From Chloroflexota bacterium (GTDB taxonomy: Bacteria > Chloroflexota > Dehalococcoidia > Bin125): a stretch of 10,666 nucleotides of DNA. Below, in pieces: positions 3-10,663 of this stretch (position 1 is the stretch's first letter; the number at the start of each line of letters is the position of its first letter). A program made the position numbers and the translations under genes. The notes beneath the pieces were generated by a model. That model was given only the letters and a program-made list of their open reading frames with translations, was not told the DNA's origin and did not search any database. The stretch covers positions 1 through 10,666 of the forward strand of contig JAPUIR010000137.1 in assembly GCA_027296805.1 (NCBI GenBank), read 5' to 3'.

Positions 3-389
3 ACACGCACGCTGCTGCTCGCCACCCTGGGCGCAATCGTGACCGCGATCTTCGCGGTCGCCAAGAGCGACGAGACTTTCTTCATCGTGCTGGCGTTCGT
101 GGCTCTCTTCGGTCTTGCTTGGGATGCCGTCTACATCGCGATCCAGCGGCTGCGCTGGGATCGCGATTGGCCTACCCCGTTTCAGGTCGCCGCCGGCGTG
201 GTGGAGGGCGTGCTGGTCTACGCCCTGATCGAGGCGGCAGGCCTGCCCGGCATCGACCAAGGCTCGGTCGGCATCGGCCTCTTCGTGGCGCACTATGGGC
301 TGACCTGGCTGAGCGTCTTCCTTTTCACGCAGGGACCGATGCGCGTCGTGGTACCACGCTGGCGCTACGACGGAGGGCGAGTGCTTTAG
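3..389 (+). CDS. Integral membrane protein, C-terminal part (5' end outside window)
   Basis: The frame is open from the first complete codon and ends at TAG 387-389. A GTG at 39 could serve as start, but it falls inside a hydrophobic stretch (LLLATLGAIVTAIFAVA) that would then be cut in half, so the gene most likely begins upstream of the window. The visible 128 residues contain about four membrane segments: that first one, FFIVLAFVALFGLAWDAVYI, a segment around FQVAAGVVEGVLVYALIEAA, and one around IGLFVAHYGLTWLSVFLF. The protein ends in a short basic tail (VVVPRWRYDGGRVL) that is probably cytoplasmic. I recognise no family and no catalytic motif. The stop overlaps that of the convergent FHA gene by 4 bp. 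The membrane-protein call is firm; the function is unknown. Confidence 0.7.
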   Translation, partial: TRTLLLATLGAIVTAIFAVAKSDETFFIVLAFVALFGLAWDAVYIAIQRLRWDRDWPTPFQVAAGVVEGVLVYALIEAAGLPGIDQGSVGIGLFVAHYGLTWLSVFLFTQGPMRVVVPRWRYDGGRVL

Positions 390-1102
390 GCGCTCGGATC
401 GACTCGGGCGATGACGAGGAGAGATGCCTTCCCCATGTCGACACGATCCCCCGTGGCCAGCCGCTGGTCCGCCGACGCCGACTCGCCATTGACGCGGAGG
501 GTGTCCCCTGCCTCGACCAGGCGGGGCTCCATGTTGCGAACCTGGATCGCGGGTTGGCCGGCGGGAAGATCCGTTCCAGCGCGCACCACCATCGGCGCGC
601 CGCCGTCGTCGACAGTCAAGCTCTCATCCGTGAGCAAATCGTGATGTTCGCCCATCGCCGAGACGAGGCGGCAGGCCACTTCACGTCGTTGCAGGATGGT
701 GGTCGGCGCGTTGACCAAGGAGGTACCGCAGTACCAGCAGTCCGTGTCCGTGGCCAGATTCTCGCGCGAGCAATGGCTGCACATTGGCCCCGAGAGTCGG
801 TCGGCTGCAGCCAGGTCGTGGAAGATCAGCGCCAGCGACCCCGCCTGAACCTCGTCGCCGTCCGACAGCGGCACCCGGCGTTCGACTACGACCCCGTTCA
901 GCTTGGTGGGGTTCGTCGTGCTCACGTTCTCGATCACGAAGTGGTCGCCCTCGAGCCCGACCGAGGCCTGCACGCGCGACACGGTCTGCGCGTCCACCCG
1001 GATCTCTACCTCCGCCCCCCGCCCGATGCGCGCGCCGCCCTCGGGGATCGGACTCGCGCGCAGAGCGCCATCGCTGGTCCAGACGAATGCGGCTCGGGCC
1101 AT
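386..1102 (-). CDS. FHA domain / zinc ribbon / degenerate FHA-like protein
   Basis: A 238-residue soluble protein, probably a cytoplasmic adaptor that binds phosphothreonine peptides. Residues 5-97 form an FHA domain: G27-R28, S42-R43 and N69-G70 match conserved positions, but the usual His of SxxH is Gln45. Next comes a four-cysteine zinc-ribbon-like module, C108-x2-C111 and C122-x2-C125. Residues 142-232 look like a second FHA fold that has lost its phosphate-binding residues: the back half (L..VNGE..., LATGDRVDMG, SLLVI) follows the FHA strand pattern, but no GR or SxxH is present. The start is ATG 1100-1102, with GGAGG 6 nt upstream and a good promoter behind it. It is transcribed divergently from the FHA-transporter fusion, which suggests a shared signalling theme. 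The first FHA and the Cys pairs are clear; the second FHA is an inference from pattern. Confidence 0.88.
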   Translation of the reverse strand: MARAAFVWTSDGALRASPIPEGGARIGRGAEVEIRVDAQTVSRVQASVGLEGDHFVIENVSTTNPTKLNGVVVERRVPLSDGDEVQAGSLALIFHDLAAADRLSGPMCSHCSRENLATDTDCWYCGTSLVNAPTTILQRREVACRLVSAMGEHHDLLTDESLTVDDGGAPMVVRAGTDLPAGQPAIQVRNMEPRLVEAGDTLRVNGESASADQRLATGDRVDMGKASLLVIARVDPSA

Positions 1103-1188: not shown

Positions 1189-3012
1189 GTGAGCGACGCA
1201 GCGGGCAGCGGCGCCACGTTGCGTGTCCTCGGCGGGACGGACGCTTGGCCACTGCCCGAGGACGGGATCGTCGCGGTCGGTCGCGACGCGGAAAACCTGA
1301 TCACGCTGGTCGAGGAGGGGGTCAGCCGCCTCCATGCCGAGCTGCGCATCGCCGAGGACGGCGTCACCATCGCCGACCTCGGCAGCGCGAACGGCACGTT
1401 CATCGAGCGCCCCAGCGGATTCGAGCGCGTCACGCAGCCCACCCCAGTCGCCGACGGCGATGTCATCCGCATCGGCCCGGTGCGTGTGGTCTACGAGGCG
1501 GGGACTGCTCTGAGCGATCCCGCCGCCGGGCAACCCTGGGGCGTGGGCCTGCATCCCCCCACAGTGGCGGCCGGCTTCAGCCACTTCGCAGTGGGCTTCT
1601 TCGTCTGGGCCTTGCCCGCGGTTCTCGCCGCGGACATCGCCCAAGAGCACGGCATGTCCGCAATCGAGGCCAAGATCCTGCCCGCAACGGCGATCATGTT
1701 CGGCGCGGTGGCACGCCTCGTCTTTGGGTTCGTCACCGACGCCCGCGGTCCGCTGCGATCCGGCAGCGGGGCGCTGGTGCTGGCGCTGATCGCGTTGGCG
1801 CTGTTGGCGGCGTTCGGCGACTCCGTGGTCGTGGTCTGGGTTGGGGTGGCGCTCCTGGGCGTCGGCCTGGCCTCGCTGCCGATCGCGCTTCCGCTCGTCT
1901 CCCGGCGCACGGCCCCCGAACGACGCGGATTCGCCCTGGGCATCATGGCCTCAGGGAGCGTCGGGATCGTGCTGGCGGCGCTCGCCGGCCCCGCGCTCGC
2001 CGACGTGTGGGACTGGCGCACGGTCTTTGGCGTGGCGCTAATTCCGGCCACGATCGGCTTCGCGGTTTTCCTCTACGGCGCTCGCGGACCGTGGGCTGCG
2101 CCGCCTCGCGGCGCCTGGCGACCGATGGCGCGTAGCTCCGATCTCCGCGTCGTGGCGTTCCTCTTCGGCATCACCTTCGGCACCTTTGCCGGGCTCTACA
2201 CCGTCCTGCCTTCCGTCCTCCAGGCTTCCGACTTCGATCTCAGCAGTTCGCAGGCCGCCTTGGTGGTCGCCATGGGGGCGCTCGCCGGCGCCATCGCGCG
2301 GGTGGTGGGCGGGAGCATCGCCGATCGAGTCGGCTCCCATCTCGTGCTGCTCTGGGTCATGACCGCCACGACAGTGCTTCTCGTCCTCTCGGGCAACGTG
2401 CCCTTAGGGCTCGCGCTCGCCACCTTCGTGCTCTCCATGGCCCTCTTCGACGCGGGGACCGCCGCGGTGCTGAAACTCGCCGCCCAAGGGTTCGGCCGCA
2501 CGGTGGGTGCGGGCGTGGGCATCATCAGCGCCGTGGGCGGCCTGTTCGGCTTTGCGCTGGCACTCGTGGCGGGCACCCTCTTCGAGAGCACTGAGTCGTC
2601 CTCTGCGACGTTTGGCGTGTTGGCCGTGGCGCCCGCGATCGCCGGACTCTGGCTGCTTGTCGTGGTCCGCCGCCGCCTCGCGCCGCCGGCAGAGCCCGTT
2701 TTCGCCCGCCTCGAGCGGCTGGATCCGTACGGCGCCGCCGTGGAGGCCGTGCCGATCGGCGCCGGTCTTAGCATCGGACGGGCGCCCGCGAATGCGCTCT
2801 GGTTCGCGAACGACGACTACGTTAGCCGCAGCCATGCTCAGATCGATCTCGACGGCGAGCGCGTGCTCCTCGCCGACCTCGATAGCACGAACGGCACGAT
2901 GCTCTGGCGCGACCAGCAATGGGTCAGCGTGGAGCGTGAAGAGCTGAGCGATGGCGACGTCATCGTGATCGGCGGTAACGTGCTGCGGTACCGCGCAGCA
3001 AGGGCGGGCTGA
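1189..3012 (+). CDS. FHA - MFS transporter (NarK/NNP-like) - FHA fusion protein
   Basis: A 607-residue inner-membrane protein. FHA domain 1 spans residues 10-104, with G31-R32, S46-R47-L48-H49 and N68-G69-T70. Residues 128-495 carry about 12 hydrophobic helices, with a loop near 298-318 separating two six-helix halves. FHA domain 2 spans residues 510-602, with G530-R531, S546-R547-S548-H549 and N568-G569-T570. Both FHA domains keep the full phosphothreonine-binding set. Twelve helices put both ends in the cytoplasm, where phosphoproteins would be. The transporter core resembles the nitrate/nitrite porter branch: R176 (helix 2) and R371 (helix 8) sit where NarK has its substrate-binding arginines, and GTAAVLKLAAQGF followed by GIISAVGGLFGF resembles the second half of that family. 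The asparagine-rich nitrate signature of helix 5 is absent (GIMASGSVG), so the substrate is uncertain. GTG 1189 is the only start found between it and the in-frame stop TAG 1141-1143. Domain calls are firm; nitrate-type specificity and phospho-control are inferences. Confidence 0.9.
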   Translation: MSDAAGSGATLRVLGGTDAWPLPEDGIVAVGRDAENLITLVEEGVSRLHAELRIAEDGVTIADLGSANGTFIERPSGFERVTQPTPVADGDVIRIGPVRVVYEAGTALSDPAAGQPWGVGLHPPTVAAGFSHFAVGFFVWALPAVLAADIAQEHGMSAIEAKILPATAIMFGAVARLVFGFVTDARGPLRSGSGALVLALIALALLAAFGDSVVVVWVGVALLGVGLASLPIALPLVSRRTAPERRGFALGIMASGSVGIVLAALAGPALADVWDWRTVFGVALIPATIGFAVFLYGARGPWAAPPRGAWRPMARSSDLRVVAFLFGITFGTFAGLYTVLPSVLQASDFDLSSSQAALVVAMGALAGAIARVVGGSIADRVGSHLVLLWVMTATTVLLVLSGNVPLGLALATFVLSMALFDAGTAAVLKLAAQGFGRTVGAGVGIISAVGGLFGFALALVAGTLFESTESSSATFGVLAVAPAIAGLWLLVVVRRRLAPPAEPVFARLERLDPYGAAVEAVPIGAGLSIGRAPANALWFANDDYVSRSHAQIDLDGERVLLADLDSTNGTMLWRDQQWVSVEREELSDGDVIVIGGNVLRYRAARAG

Positions 3013-3024: not shown

Positions 3025-3534
3025 GTGGGCCGTGTCCGTCTCGATCAGGAAGGGGCGTCTTCGCTGGTGCTGGGCGACGAGTTCACGATCGGCCGCGACG
3101 ACGCCAACACCCTCGCTCTGCCGGACGACGCCGCGCTCAGCCGTCGTCACGCCACGATTAGCGCGACACCGGACGGCTACTTCCTCAGCGATGCCGGCAG
3201 CCGCAACGGCACCCGCCTGGAACGGGACGGCGCCTCCCAGCGTGTCGATCGGAACGTCGCGCTGCGGACTGGTGATGTCATCGTCCTCGGCGACACACGG
3301 CTGATCGTGGAGGATGCCACTCGCGACGAGACAGGGACACGGATTCTCGACCCGCAGCTCACCAACGTCCCCGGGGCGACGCGGGTGGGTCGCGTCCTTC
3401 CCGGCGTCCCGCCTGGCGAGGACCCGTCCCAGCGCCAGCCCGCGCAGCCGGGTGCCGCGGATCCTGGAACTCAGGAAGAAGCTCCCCGACGTCGTCCCTC
3501 TCTCTTCCGACGCCTCCTGCGTCGCGGCGGCTGA
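3025..3534 (+). CDS. Small FHA domain protein with Pro-rich linker and basic C-terminal tail
   Basis: A 169-residue protein with no signal peptide or membrane helix. Residues 1-97 are a complete FHA domain: G23-R24, S39-R40-R41-H42 and N61-G62-T63, ending in the usual TGDVIVLGDTRLIV strands. Residues 98-130 contain threonines next to arginine (ETGTRIL, GATRVGR) that could be kinase targets, though this is only inferred. Residues 128-153 are Pro/Gln/Gly-rich and look disordered. The last 15 residues (RRRPSLFRRLLRRGG) are strongly basic and amphipathic and could touch the membrane or nucleic acid. The start is GTG with a strong binding site 12 bp after the transporter fusion stops, so the two are almost surely co-transcribed. 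A plausible role is a partner that bridges phosphorylated proteins at the transporter. The FHA identity is certain, the role is not. Confidence 0.88.
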   Translation: MGRVRLDQEGASSLVLGDEFTIGRDDANTLALPDDAALSRRHATISATPDGYFLSDAGSRNGTRLERDGASQRVDRNVALRTGDVIVLGDTRLIVEDATRDETGTRILDPQLTNVPGATRVGRVLPGVPPGEDPSQRQPAQPGAADPGTQEEAPRRRPSLFRRLLRRGG

Positions 3535-6020: not shown

Positions 6021-7982
6021 TTAGTGCCCGTGCGTGCACTCCCCCTCGGCGCAGGTGCATTGCTCCTCCGGCAGGGCGACATCGAGCGCGGGGTTGGTGT
6101 CGAAGAATCCCCAAGGCCGCAGCTTGAAGCCGCAGGTATGTGTGGGGCTGACTGGAAAGTCCTCGGGCCGGATGAGGTGGTTCACGCCCACGACGTACCA
6201 GAGCACGACGTCTTCGTTCTCCAGCGCCCGGTTCCCCGAGGTGAACGCGGGCATGCCATCGCCGCCCGTGGACTGGGAGGGGTAGGCACCCGCCGCATAC
6301 AGCTCGTTTGGCGACTCTCGCGTCACCCAGAGCTGCTTGCGCGCGAACGCGGCGCGCTTCGAGACCGCGGCCTCCTCCCCCGCCATCATGTCGACGGTCT
6401 CACCGGGATGGAGGGTGTAGCCCACCGGTTCCCCGATCGCGTTCGTCCGCCCGGGGTTGACGATCCGCCAGTGGCGTCCGCTCGACGACTGCACCGACCG
6501 TCCCGCTTCGGACTCGCTGCGGATCGGGGTGAGGGTGGGGGCGAAGGCGTTGGCGTGGGGGTTGTCGGGTCCCACCGGCAGCGGATGCGTGTCTACCTCG
6601 TAGACCGTGTTAGCCGCGCCGTCGATGTCCAAATCCATGCGCACGCAGAAAAAATGCTGGTGAATCGGCCCCGCCAGGTTCTTCGCGACCAGGTTCGCCG
6701 TCGGGCGGCTCTCCCCATCCCCGACCGCCATGGTCTGGATGATTCCGGTCAGTTTGATTTCGTGCTCGATCGAGCCGTCTTGGTAGAAGTACCAGTAGAA
6801 GCCGTAGTCGTAGTTGCCCACCGTCGCCCAGGACGAGACCACCAGGCGCCGGGAGCGGCGCACCTCGGCATGGTTGTCGTTGTGCATGTCCACGTGCTTC
6901 CAGAGGATGTTGTGGTCCTCCTCGTGCAAGCAGACGGCGTTGGGCAACGTTTGGGCCTCGCCGGCGTCGTTCGCGACGACGCCGTCCATGTAAACGATCT
7001 CGCCAAGGCAGTCGCAGCCAAGGGTGAGCGCGTTGGTCAGCCGCCCCAGCCCGATCTCGCCGCTGTCGAACGCGTTCTTGAAGTACTGACCCGGCGACGT
7101 ATCCCCGTAGGGCACCACCATCTCCGAGAGCCCCATGCGGTGGCAGATCGGACGGACCTCGCCGTCGTCCTCATAGCCCACCTGATGCAGGACCAGCCCC
7201 TCGCGCGGGTGCAATGAGACGCGCATCCGCCAGCGCTGCCAGCGCACCTCATGCCCGTCGACGCTGAAGCTTGCCCCGTCGGGTTGGGTGATCTCCAGGG
7301 GCCGCAGATCCCCGCGCAGGCTGAGCTGTGCCTCCGCGTCGTAACGCAGATCGGCGGTGGGCACCGGCGCATCGCCCTCATCGACGAGCGTGAGAACCTC
7401 TTTCGCGTTCAGGTCCACCACGGCGACGACGCCCTCGATCGGTCGCGCGTAGCCGTTGGACGCCTTCTCGTCGCGCACATAGCTGATCCCGCGCAGGATC
7501 CGGCGGCCTTGCTCGACGGGGTCACCGAAGTTACCCGCCGGCCAAGGGTCGATCTGCACCTTGTCGAAGTCAGTCACGCCACGGCGGCGCAGAGCCTCCT
7601 GCCAGCGCGCGTCGGCACGGATGACACGGTCGGCGTCCTGGTACTCCTCGAAGGTCGGACTTGGCTGAACGCCCGGACAGATCTCCCACGTCTCCACACT
7701 GCCGCCATCAAGGTTGACGACGCCCTCATAGACCGTGCCCTCTCCGCGCTCGATCGCCACGATGAAGGCTCGCCGGATCGGCGGCGACTCCGCATTGAAG
7801 GCGTACACCTCCGCCTTGGGCGGCTCGTGCAGCGCGATGCTCACGAAGCGCATGTGCTCGGACGGGTGGCGCTCCCGGCAGAGCGCCGCGGCCTGCTCAA
7901 TCTCGGCGGCGGTCAATGGATCGAGTGGGTGCGCGTTGGTTCGTACATCCGCTTGGACGGACTGGCTCTCTTCGACCACCAT
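6021..7982 (-). CDS. Copper-containing primary-amine oxidase (topaquinone enzyme)
   Basis: A 653-residue enzyme oxidising primary amines to aldehyde, ammonia and hydrogen peroxide (EC 1.4.3.21). Y391 in GNYDYG is the tyrosine converted to topaquinone; D306 (KNAFDSGEIG) is the catalytic base; copper ligands are H441 and H443 (HQHFF) and H615 (PTHTCGF). Spacings between these residues match the Arthrobacter globiformis enzyme closely (85, 50 and 172 here against about 84, 49 and 159). C325 and C351 lie 26 apart, as in its conserved disulfide. Smaller N-terminal domains occupy about residues 20-210. No signal peptide is seen, suggesting a cytoplasmic enzyme. The last 12 residues are a Cys/His-rich tail absent from the textbook enzymes. 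The ATG start has GAAGGG 8 nt upstream. It is convergent with the cassette and divergent from the DM13 gene. The natural amine cannot be inferred. Confidence 0.95.
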   Translation of the reverse strand: MVVEESQSVQADVRTNAHPLDPLTAAEIEQAAALCRERHPSEHMRFVSIALHEPPKAEVYAFNAESPPIRRAFIVAIERGEGTVYEGVVNLDGGSVETWEICPGVQPSPTFEEYQDADRVIRADARWQEALRRRGVTDFDKVQIDPWPAGNFGDPVEQGRRILRGISYVRDEKASNGYARPIEGVVAVVDLNAKEVLTLVDEGDAPVPTADLRYDAEAQLSLRGDLRPLEITQPDGASFSVDGHEVRWQRWRMRVSLHPREGLVLHQVGYEDDGEVRPICHRMGLSEMVVPYGDTSPGQYFKNAFDSGEIGLGRLTNALTLGCDCLGEIVYMDGVVANDAGEAQTLPNAVCLHEEDHNILWKHVDMHNDNHAEVRRSRRLVVSSWATVGNYDYGFYWYFYQDGSIEHEIKLTGIIQTMAVGDGESRPTANLVAKNLAGPIHQHFFCVRMDLDIDGAANTVYEVDTHPLPVGPDNPHANAFAPTLTPIRSESEAGRSVQSSSGRHWRIVNPGRTNAIGEPVGYTLHPGETVDMMAGEEAAVSKRAAFARKQLWVTRESPNELYAAGAYPSQSTGGDGMPAFTSGNRALENEDVVLWYVVGVNHLIRPEDFPVSPTHTCGFKLRPWGFFDTNPALDVALPEEQCTCAEGECTHGH

Positions 7983-8075
7983 CGGCGTCGCCCTTCATTT
8001 CGAAGCGTCCCGGACCTGTTGCGCGCATGCTACAGCGCCGCACCGCCGGACGCGGGCCCTCGCCGGGCGTTCCCT

Positions 8076-8107
8076 GGGTCTAGGCCAGGGCAAGGGTCCA
8101 GGCCAGG
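8076..8107. repeat. 14-bp direct repeat, 18-bp period
   Basis: GGGTCTAGGCCAGG (8076-8089) recurs as GGGTCCAGGCCAGG (8094-8107) with one mismatch and a 4-bp spacer. It is central in the divergent gap, upstream of both candidate promoters, as expected of a tandem binding site for a regulator, although a simple local duplication is possible. Confidence 0.6.
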
Positions 8108-8198
8108 AAAGGCTCTCGCAAGATTTGCGCTCGATCCTGAATGCGGTAGTTCGACGTTCGTCTGGCTTTGCTGGCACGTCGCAGGGGCCTGGCTCGCG

Positions 8199-8206
8199 AA
8201 GGGAGA
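8199..8206 (+). promoter_or_regulatory. Ribosome binding site AAGGGAGA
   Basis: AAGGGAGA ends 5 nt before GTG 8212 and decides this start for the DM13 membrane protein. The open frame continues upstream, antisense to the amine oxidase gene, but that extension has no family resemblance. Confidence 0.75.
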
Positions 8207-8211
8207 CCCAA

Positions 8212-9306
8212 GTGATTAACAGCAATTCGCTGCTCGCTCCGGACCGTGCTGAACGACTCCGCCGTGCTTTGGTGGTTCTGGCTGCGATGGCCGGACTGGC
8301 CGCCGCCGGGATCGTGCTCAGCTCGCAGACCGTGACCGACTTCCTGCGCGAGGGGCCGGTACGAGTGATCGACCTCGAAGGGGAGCGCCTGCGGGTGCTG
8401 CTGGGGCTGGGGACGGCGCTTGCCACGATGGCGGCCCTGGCCTGCTTCTGGGTGCGGCCCGGACCGCGAATCGCCGTTCTGGGTGCGGTCGCGCTGGGCG
8501 GCGGCCTCTTCCTCATCCACGGACTGCTCCTCCCCGCGGTAGGTCTCTTCGCCGCCGCGGTCGCCACCGACTTCGCGACGCATATTTCCAGAGCACAGCT
8601 CCGATCGGCCAGCCCCCGCCGCTACCCGATCGCCTGGTTCGCGTTCGGGTCCGTAGGCGTCGCTGCCGTGGTGGGTCTGATCTGGGCCACGGTCTGGCTC
8701 GCCACCCCGCTCTTCGACAGCGGGACGGAGCTTAACGAGGCCCTGGGCTTCCAGGTCGAGGGACTGGAACAACCTGAGGACGTGCAGCGCTCGGCAATTC
8801 TGGCGGTCACCGCCGCGCTAGCCACTCCCAGCGAACAGGAATCGAGCGCCGCGCCAAGTCAGAGCTCCGCCGCAACGGTCGAGGCATCCGCCCCAGCGGT
8901 CGAGGCGACCGGATCGGCTACGGAGGCGCAGCCCTCTGAGAGTGCGGCGCCGGGCTCAGCGAGCGGAGGGCAGGGGTTGCTGATCGCGAGTGGGAGCCTG
9001 CAAGGAGCCGATGCCTTCCACACCGGGAGCGGCGAGGTGCTGCTCGTCCAGGGTCCTGACGGTGAGGTGATTCTCCGTTTCCAAGACTACGAAGTCCGCA
9101 ACGGCCCCGGCCTTCGCATCTACCTATCGCCCGACCCGGGTGGCGATGTGCGCGCCGACGGTGCGATCTCGCTCGGCCCGATCAAAGCGACAAGCGGCTT
9201 CGTCAACTATGACGTTCCGGCTGGGGTCGACCCGTCGATCTTCCGCTCGGTGATCATCTACTGCGAGCCGTTCGGGGTCGTCTTCGCGACCGCGGTCATT
9301 GGCTAG
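8212..9306 (+). CDS. Multi-pass membrane protein with extracytoplasmic DM13 domain
   Basis: A 364-residue protein. Hydrophobic segments fall at about 19-38, 62-81, 86-101, 104-119 and 140-165. Positive loops (DRAERLRR, RPGPR, the RAQLRSASPRR loop) fit five helices with the N-terminus inside and the C-terminus outside. Residues 206-256 are a Ser/Ala/Glu-rich, low-complexity spacer. Residues 257-364 match the DM13 family: SGSLQGADAFHTGSGEV, a strand set around QDYEVRNGPGLRIYLS, and the closing VIIYCEPFGVVFATA with its conserved Cys351. DM13 has been proposed to act in electron transfer or redox chemistry at cell surfaces; its bacterial role is poorly known. The start is GTG 8212, chosen from its AAGGGAGA site. 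It is divergent from the amine oxidase and ends 4 bp from the convergent small membrane gene. The DM13 assignment is strong; the five-helix topology is inferred. Confidence 0.87.
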   Translation: MINSNSLLAPDRAERLRRALVVLAAMAGLAAAGIVLSSQTVTDFLREGPVRVIDLEGERLRVLLGLGTALATMAALACFWVRPGPRIAVLGAVALGGGLFLIHGLLLPAVGLFAAAVATDFATHISRAQLRSASPRRYPIAWFAFGSVGVAAVVGLIWATVWLATPLFDSGTELNEALGFQVEGLEQPEDVQRSAILAVTAALATPSEQESSAAPSQSSAATVEASAPAVEATGSATEAQPSESAAPGSASGGQGLLIASGSLQGADAFHTGSGEVLLVQGPDGEVILRFQDYEVRNGPGLRIYLSPDPGGDVRADGAISLGPIKATSGFVNYDVPAGVDPSIFRSVIIYCEPFGVVFATAVIG

Positions 9307-9592: not shown

Positions 9593-10663
9593 TTACAGCC
9601 GTGCTTCGTAGAAGGCGCTTCCCAGCCCCGACAGCTCTAGCCGCCGGAACTCGCTGAATCCGGCCTCGAGGACAAGCTCGCGCATGACCGGCTCCGGCAA
9701 GCCCAAGGTTCCGTAGCCCGCGCCCCCCGGCTCCGACAGCGCGGACGCCAGACAGGCCAGCACGGAGATCGCGTAGCTGCCCGCCGCGCGGGGGTTATCG
9801 CGCAGGTTCTCCTCGAACGTCGGGCGGCTGTCGATGTCGGCAATGAACCAGGTCCCGTCGGGCTGCAGCGACGAGCGGATCGCGGACGCCGTTTCGTGTG
9901 GGTTCGTCATGTCGTGGAGACAGTCGAACGTCAGGACCAGTGCGAAGCGCTGATCGTCTGGGATCGATGTCTCCCGCAGGTGGTAGAACGTGGCGTTCGC
10001 TAGCCCCGCTTGCGTTGCGTTGCGCCGGGCGATCGTGAGCATCTGTTGCGACACGTCGAAGCCGTGGAACTCCGAGCGGGGGAACGCCTTCGCCATCTCG
10101 ACCAGCGCGACGCCGCTGCCGCAGCCCACGTCGGCCACCACCGCCCCCGCGATCAGGCGCTCCTCCACGCCGCTCAGCAGCGGCAGCGCCGACGTCAGCA
10201 ACTCTTGCCGGTGCCAGTTGGCGAAGAGCCCGTCGATCCCGCGCGCCGCCGCCGCGCCCCGGTCGTCGACAGAGAAGCCCAGCCCCGTTCGGAACGACTC
10301 CTCGACGCGGGGCACCAGCGCAAGCCGGTCCGGGATCGAAGCCACCATCGCTTCCATCGAGACGAGGCTCGTGGGGTCCGCGAGCAGCGCCGCGGAAGCC
10401 GCTGGGAGCGCAAACTTCCCATCGCCTTCGTACTCCAAGACGCCCGCCGCGGCTTGCCCGCGCAGCCATTCCCGCAGCCAGCGTTCCTGGTACCCGGTCG
10501 CTTGGGCCAGCGTGTCGCTGGTGCTCGGTCCTGCTCCACGCAGGGCCTCGTACAGGCCCAGGCGCACGCCCACGCTCATCATTGCCGCGACCAGGGCGCC
10601 CGTCGTATAGCCGCCGAGGAGCGCGGTCTTCTCCCGCAGGGCGTCTGCATCTGCTTCGGGCAT
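9593..10663 (-). CDS. Class I SAM-dependent methyltransferase with N-terminal helical/winged-helix domain
   Basis: A 356-residue protein. Residues 15-95 resemble the dimerisation/winged-helix part of small-molecule methyltransferases (GLYEAL, LAQATGYQERWLREWLRGQA, AGVLEYEGDGKFALP). Residues 165-290 are the SAM-binding Rossmann core: motif I VADVGCGSG (D178-G184), an acidic residue at the end of strand two (D203 in GFDVS), and a CLHDM motif (248-252) in the place of motif IV, common in a bacterial group often misannotated as regulators. The C-terminal part (YGTLGLPEPVMRELVLEAGF, then SAFYEARL) completes that group's pattern. It transfers methyl from SAM to an unidentified small molecule, probably in the cytoplasm. 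ATG 10663 lies 3 bp from the window end, so the ribosome binding site cannot be checked and the true start may lie outside. Family strong, substrate unknown. Confidence 0.85.
   Translation of the reverse strand: MPEADADALREKTALLGGYTTGALVAAMMSVGVRLGLYEALRGAGPSTSDTLAQATGYQERWLREWLRGQAAAGVLEYEGDGKFALPAASAALLADPTSLVSMEAMVASIPDRLALVPRVEESFRTGLGFSVDDRGAAAARGIDGLFANWHRQELLTSALPLLSGVEERLIAGAVVADVGCGSGVALVEMAKAFPRSEFHGFDVSQQMLTIARRNATQAGLANATFYHLRETSIPDDQRFALVLTFDCLHDMTNPHETASAIRSSLQPDGTWFIADIDSRPTFEENLRDNPRAAGSYAISVLACLASALSEPGGAGYGTLGLPEPVMRELVLEAGFSEFRRLELSGLGSAFYEARL

Follow-up and report, generated by a model that had tools for sequence, protein, structure and literature searches.

The window analyzed here, 10,666 nucleotides on contig C43 of the draft Chloroflexota genome G000, encodes a protein in which a nitrate-porter-like MFS core is enclosed between two FHA domains. 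The best reading of this architecture, judging from sequence comparison, is that of a phosphothreonine-controlled carrier or anion sensor that would serve a local kinase-FHA module.

The protein is encoded by a single open frame at positions 1189 to 3012 of the plus strand, with a GTG start, 607 codons, and no internal stop. Pfam recognizes two stretches of PF00498 in it (together 106.4 bits for the protein, against a cut-off of 20.7) as well as MFS_1 (121.7 bits against 33.4). Both FHA domains, the N-terminal one (residues about 29 to 96; positions 1273 to 1476; E = 5e-16) and the C-terminal one (2770 to 2973; E = 2.1e-14), were recovered above the cut-off in the genome search, and the MFS core between them (residues about 126 to 491; 1564 to 2661) aligns end to end with the 12-helix NarK. 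An ABC ATPase core is absent: at an E value of 0.001, Pfam returned only MFS_1, FHA, and Yop-YscD_cpl, which overlaps FHA.

The neighbors of the carrier gene include a stand-alone FHA protein of 169 amino acids (3025 to 3534, plus strand; Pfam) that begins 12 bases past the carrier stop. On the other side lie a divergently transcribed gene for a 238-residue protein combining an FHA domain (Pfam) with a zinc-ribbon-like part (CxxC...CxxC, by eye; 386 to 1102, minus strand) and a gene, cut by the contig start, for a small hydrophobic protein with four hydropathy peaks (3 to 389, plus strand). The FHA-zinc-ribbon protein of the window is without the usual FHA histidine, reading SRVQ versus SRLH in its counterpart in a related genome. 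The remainder of the window contains a frame for a copper amine oxidase, matched over the complete enzyme domain (6021 to 7982, minus strand), a long frame with hydrophobic stretches and, by eye, a Ser/Ala-rich stretch (7735 to 9306, plus strand; no NCBIfam match from 8083 on), and a methyltransferase with an Rv2258c-like winged-helix N terminus (9593 to 10663, minus strand).

An artefact, be it a frameshift, an assembly join, or a chance fusion of separate genes, has to be considered given the quality of the sources. G000 is a draft of 2.3 Mb in 453 contigs (completeness 79.6%, contamination 5.5%) and presumably a MAG, and the one confirmed relative from a genome-contig scan by close-relative patterns, locus L007, likewise comes from a MAG (Chloroflexi bacterium TK10-74A). 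L007 is identical in sequence to genome G006 (100% over 4758 bases), a member of the same family as the window genome but of a different genus. At L007:7929-9761, this locus encodes a full-length FHA-MFS-FHA homologue that is 64% identical to the window protein and has an aligned start. The order of four genes is common to both loci: small hydrophobic protein (plus strand), FHA-zinc-ribbon protein (minus), FHA-MFS-FHA protein (plus), and FHA protein (plus). The genes for the carrier and the stand-alone FHA protein overlap by 4 bases in L007; in the window, a 12-base gap containing AGGAGG separates them. With architecture, gene order, and an aligned start all recurring in a second genus, neither chance nor an assembly join accounts for the frame, and the probability of an artefact is very small. 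The 607-residue FHA-MFS-FHA frame seen in the initial annotation is confirmed.

The rarity of the architecture was assessed in Chloroflexota samples, by the genome-contig scan, and in plasmids, phages, and the literature. Among 393 genomes of the class, searched at E 1e-60, two matched, G000 itself and G006. A search of 100 relatives at E 1e-20 yielded 9 matching genomes including G000, and both FHA domains were spanned only in G000 and G006. At E 1e-30, 19 genomes of a 400-genome phylum sample matched, again including G000, and only the window's own row spanned FHA; G006 is absent among the matching genomes of that sample. These class, relative, and phylum samples overlap, and three candidates per genome were scored in the 393- and 400-genome searches. 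Of the plasmid records, 41 matched, none covering 80% of the query; no phage matched the FHA-MFS-FHA protein, and a scan of viral contigs for further core sequences gave none that was confirmed.

Other FHA-MFS fusions were sought around homologues of the core and around other FHA genes. With seven FHA queries, tblastn detected no FHA domain in 26 core-homologue loci (with flanks of about 1.5 kb, shorter at contig ends); the same search found FHA in all three positive loci. One apparent FHA domain in the core homologue L029 (genome G525) had come from a loose text pattern; the corresponding genome match runs to residue 533 past two stops, tblastn found none there, and the candidate was dismissed as chance. 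In 20 FHA loci of 2.4 to 5 kb, 35 FHA-bearing frames, some of them cut by the locus ends, have at most two hydrophobic peaks each, giving no second FHA-MFS fusion. The titles and abstract openings surveyed, mostly from outside subscription journals, contain no paper on such an FHA-MFS-FHA fusion. Within this coverage, the rarity in the Chloroflexota samples and the lack of such a paper both agree with the original remark that the architecture was not known to have been described.

FHA domains are phosphothreonine readers, and their phosphothreonine pocket is marked by the GR, SxxH, and NG motifs. Both domains of the window protein retain all three, as initially claimed: G31-R32, S46/H49, and N68-G69 in the N-terminal domain and G530-R531, S546/H549, and N568-G569 in the C-terminal one, every one of these residues being invariant in the L007 homologue. 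When inter-helix loops of the core were assigned by us to the two sides of the membrane, the five inside loops contained 14 Lys and Arg residues and the outside loops 1; on this charge distribution, both FHA domains are predicted to be, and should be, cytoplasmic.

The three segments differ in how strongly they are conserved between the window and L007 proteins, with identities of 40% for the N-terminal FHA domain, 73% for the core, and 56% for the C-terminal FHA domain. The corresponding NG86 estimates of dN/dS are 0.67/0.91, 0.21/1.07, and 0.35/1.33, all below 1, and in each segment conservation is lowest at third codon positions. Constraint is strongest in the core and weakest in the N-terminal FHA domain. 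When the full-length protein was compared as a single sequence with PDB sequences, all 14 matches were FHA proteins, an Rv1747 FHA domain among them, and NarK was not matched. By sequence, the nearest solved relatives are GarA/OdhI for the N-terminal domain and ArnA (5a8i) for the C-terminal one. Within the window, the C-terminal FHA domain (2704 to 3003) is closest to that of the next gene (3037 to 3291; 41% identity), a likeness that may stem from local duplication.

Hydropathy gives a less clear picture of the membrane part, with 11 distinct peaks in the window protein and 9 in the L007 protein; the family-average profile breaks into 14 runs (some are split, and two cover a pair of helices each), and these were read as 12 helices. 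The description of the core as a 12-helix MFS unit is nevertheless borne out, because the whole core aligns end to end with NarK; hydropathy alone does not prove it. Structure prediction of the full chain from a two-row alignment was too poor for use (mean pLDDT 45.9; core mostly below 50, FHA blocks 49 to 88). The cytoplasmic motif of the C-terminal half of MFS proteins is kept in the window core (G374, D379, R380). In the cytoplasmic motif of the N-terminal half, both the window protein and its L007 homologue carry Ala directly after D184, where 23 of 26 homologues that have no FHA domain carry Arg; NarK itself has neither the Asp nor the Arg at this site.

Profile comparisons trace the core to the nitrate/nitrite porters (NNP), a branch of the MFS. 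NarK (E = 5.2e-68) is the best solved relative of the core family profile in the PDB, followed by NarU (2e-67), with the next family, a lactate transporter, at 4e-16. Taken singly, the sequence matches TIGR00886, the NarK family of NCBIfam, with an E value of 1.3e-32 and 113.4 bits, below the 311.7-bit cut-off; the link to NarK thus depends on the family profile or on NCBIfam, and the single-sequence PDB search did not give it. For 16 of the 20 plasmid matches listed (out of 41), the annotation reads nitrate/nitrite or NarK/NasA transporter.

According to the available part of the NarK report (PMC4432589), the nitrate site is formed mainly by seven side chains, and the changes Y263F and R305K completely abolish activity. 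E. coli K-12 NarK, a nitrate:nitrite antiporter, was aligned with the two FHA-bearing proteins and the 26 FHA-less homologues, which are best matches from the relative and phylum searches, some of them near-identical, and do not represent 26 independent cases. Four of the seven side chains are kept, NarK F49, R89, F267, and R305 corresponding to F137, R176 (1714 to 1716), F330, and R371 (2299 to 2301), and the two arginines are invariant in the window protein, L007, NarK, and 26/26 FHA-less homologues. NarK G85 and G268 are also kept. The other three side chains are altered, in the same way in L007: Leu230 (1876 to 1878) stands at the site of Phe147, the nitrate-stacking residue in the available NarK text (PMC4432589), Ser257 (1957 to 1959) at that of Asn175, and Phe326 (2164 to 2166) at that of Tyr263. 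Both FHA-bearing proteins also have replacements of G144, G363, and S366; at the Gly363 site, both carry Asp (Asp421 in the window protein, 2449 to 2451).

This set of changes separates the pair from its FHA-less homologues, in which F147, Y263, G144, and G363 are kept in 26/26 and N175 in 25/26, the remaining one having Ser; at the S366 site, 25/26 have Asn. The canonical NarK-like frame L015:2754-4127, taken from a smaller alignment and outside the 26, keeps F147, N175, and Y263. The tree groups the window and L007 proteins with 100/100 support, the stem of this clade measuring 4.67 changes per column; L010 comes out as their sister at 93/83, a node not starred, and the NarK branch of 5 makes the placement of NarK unsure. 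Our reading is that the pocket was probably rebuilt once, before the two genera split, and that the anion-binding charge pair was kept without the nitrate chemistry of NarK. Since Y263F kills NarK transport in the available part of that study (PMC4432589), transport may be lost. The original view of the core as a plain MFS porter therefore stands as to the MFS core, to which NNP descent can be added, but the altered nitrate-porter pocket leaves a sensor role possible.

The left flank of the carrier in L007 has the makings of a signaling island. A glutamate dehydrogenase gene (L007:243-1592, plus strand; Pfam) converges on the gene for a Ser/Thr kinase with a PD40 propeller, of up to 1076 amino acids (L007:1622-4852, minus strand; Pfam); these are followed by the FHA-unnamed protein, in which an FHA domain is joined to a long unnamed C-terminal region (L007:4650-6686, plus strand; Pfam), and by the homologue of the small hydrophobic protein (L007:6683-7099, plus strand). 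The kinase thus lies in the same island as the carrier and is not the next gene. G006 has five Pfam FHA matches (C20:9362-14658) and a single Pkinase match (C20:14942-15685), all of them within about 6.3 kb that include the carrier gene, and the glutamate dehydrogenase (C20:17806-19128) lies with them within about 10 kb. This setting, with a Ser/Thr kinase in the same island, suggests that a nearby protein kinase controls the carrier.

In G000, the window accounts for four of the six FHA matches; a fifth is found together with a kinase on contig C71, where the dehydrogenase, the kinase, and the FHA-unnamed protein occur in the same relative order as in the left flank of L007. By tblastx (main collinear matches, among the matches listed), C71 ends at a point matching L007 position 6017 and the window starts at about position 6713; the two contigs are probably neighbors across about 690 missing bases. 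Three further kinases are encoded elsewhere in G000. Across 20 genomes of the family including G000, FHA matches occur in three (G000, G006, and a 45-amino-acid scrap in G016), kinases in three (G000, G006, and G009), and the island glutamate dehydrogenase, at E 1e-60, in two, G000 (L025:4343-5692) and G006 (L007:243-1592). Genome G004, a congener of G006 with 87% completeness, gave no FHA, kinase, or island-dehydrogenase match. The kinases of C71 and L007 both contain HRDIKPDN and DFG and have one hydrophobic membrane pass before the propeller, which makes a receptor kinase that senses on the outside plausible, its orientation being inferred. The tail of the stand-alone FHA protein, a candidate phosphorylated partner, has the motif DPxLTxVPxATRVG common to both genomes and a basic end; in the window this tail is rich in Pro, carries a conserved threonine motif, and has an Arg-rich end that might serve to touch the membrane.

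The FHA-unnamed protein extends beyond the family. Full-length copies were found in G495 and G467, Chloroflexota from outside the class of the window (400-genome sample, two candidates scored per genome), and the protein is present in 2 of 47 genomes of their own class. In both, a small hydrophobic gene overlaps the FHA-unnamed gene by ATGA and a kinase is nearby; G467 also carries a zinc-ribbon gene and an FHA gene. In all, the four loci are L007:4650-6686, L025:1-1266, L065:12362-14482, and L066:8584-11118; the ATGA-overlapping hydrophobic gene follows in three of them (the L025 sequence stops short of it), and all four have a Ser/Thr kinase nearby. The conserved C-terminal part, of about 450 to 500 residues, has GGGVGSF-like and CTGL motifs and looks Rossmann-like by eye; best-stretch matches of the protein (Pfam and PDB; NCBIfam for L007 and L025 only) start in or near the FHA region, and some weak ones extend past it. 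Within 20-kb stretches of G495 and G467, the carrier query matched FHA regions only and no MFS core, which argues that the carrier is not an essential part of the module. The carrier looks like a recruit into a pre-existing kinase-FHA module.

The island recalls known systems in some respects. GarA, a small stand-alone protein, and OdhI act as an FHA switch on glutamate and TCA enzymes, including glutamate dehydrogenase. They resemble the present case as the nearest solved relatives of the N-terminal FHA domain and through the glutamate dehydrogenase gene in the island, but GarA stands alone, and the C-terminal FHA domain of the carrier is nearest to ArnA, not GarA. From NarK and the other NNP proteins, the window protein differs by its two added FHA domains as well as by the pocket replacements. 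To our knowledge, direct control of a bacterial transporter by FHA domains and a Ser/Thr kinase is known mainly from Rv1747. In the available portions of two reports (PMC3908365, PMC5549992), Rv1747 is a mycobacterial transporter with two FHA domains, encoded in one operon with the Ser/Thr kinase PknF, and the two suggest a transporter tunable through FHA and phosphorylation. The accessible text of a review (PMC9312465) adds that its FHA part forms phosphorylation-dependent condensates and that Rv1747 forms membrane clusters. The window protein shares with it the pairing of a transporter with two FHA domains, and in L007 a Ser/Thr kinase gene lies in the same island as the carrier; however, compared at the level of Pfam families, the two proteins differ, Rv1747 being an ABC protein whose two FHA domains sit together in a single cytoplasmic module (according to the same review text, PMC9312465) and the window protein an MFS protein with one FHA domain at each end. 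The analogy to Rv1747 and PknF drawn in the initial annotation is therefore apt as a way of working (PMC3908365 and PMC5549992, as far as available), but not as family membership.

That the FHA-MFS-FHA protein is an effector of the kinase-FHA island is very probable. The explanation as a whole, an NNP-derived carrier recruited into a Ser/Thr-kinase-FHA island and controlled by docking, has an even chance of being right. Under it, the receptor-like kinase, with its one pass between kinase and beta-propeller, would phosphorylate threonines on an island partner, most simply the tail of the stand-alone FHA protein or the kinase itself, and this partner would then dock on the FHA domains of the carrier. 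Docking on one or both ends would alter the cytoplasmic gate or cluster carriers. MFS carriers work by rocking their two halves against each other (rocker-switch), and docking could for this reason change the cytoplasmic gate; with one FHA domain hanging from each six-helix half, a two-site partner could clamp both. The cargo would be an anion that the protein handles in another way than NarK does nitrate. Against this explanation stand the lack of FHA, kinase, and dehydrogenase matches in G004, the contamination and the further kinases of G000 and the location of its island kinase on a separate contig, the 40% identity of the N-terminal FHA domains, the modules of G495 and G467 that show no MFS core, and the need for a family profile or NCBIfam to link the core to NarK. 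Whether docking regulates actual transport, rather than signaling or anchoring, is evenly balanced.

Three other roles compete with that of a docking-controlled carrier. The core could bind an anion as a sensor without transporting it, its conformational change showing or hiding the FHA domains to the kinase-FHA module. Such a transceptor would fit the loss, in both FHA-bearing proteins, of the Tyr263, Phe147, and Asn175 that all or nearly all of the 26 FHA-less homologues keep, while the arginines stay, the abolition of NarK transport by Y263F and R305K (PMC4432589, in the part available), the very long stem branch of the pair, and the new Asp421 common to both; yet constraint is strongest in the core, the C-half cytoplasmic motif is kept, and the pocket changes may mean only a different substrate, which makes a pure sensor unlikely. 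A mainly structural role, with the carrier tethering phosphorylated island proteins (the FHA-unnamed protein, the dehydrogenase, and the kinase) to the membrane and transport secondary, appears decidedly unlikely: a plain anchor needs no two buried arginines and no counterparts of F49, F267, and G268, even though five FHA matches surround one kinase in G006 and the condensates and clusters of Rv1747 (review PMC9312465, accessible text) offer a precedent.

The third possibility, that of a conventional nitrate or nitrite porter to which a phospho-switch has been added, draws on the NNP descent of the core, the glutamate dehydrogenase in the same island, and a nitrite/sulphite reductase domain in both G000 and G006. 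Against it, three of the seven nitrate-site side chains are changed, the NarK score of 113.4 bits is below the required 311.7, and NarG was above the cut-off in none of six genomes tested (weak matches in five). The reductase domain also occurs in three relatives that have no island (five of the six genomes overall); being found with and without the island, and with NarG at 0/6, nitrate respiration was discarded as a pointer to the cargo. We consider such a porter very unlikely, and nitrate is not the favored cargo on this evidence.

The boldest reading would be a phosphothreonine-reading transceptor made from a nitrate porter, with the pocket rebuilt as an anion sensor or a new anion carrier, one FHA domain per rocking half, and wiring to a self-contained receptor-kinase module with glutamate dehydrogenase. 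This version is tentative and somewhat unlikely, but if true, it would mean an MFS protein gated by a phospho-partner clamping its two halves. The geometry of one FHA domain per half makes a direct prediction on rocker-switch gating, and the pocket changes offer a direct test of carrier versus sensor. In TK10-74A, one compact island holds all the FHA matches, the only Pfam kinase match, and one FHA-capped carrier, so that a chain of kinase, substrate, reader, and transporter would be testable with a handful of proteins.
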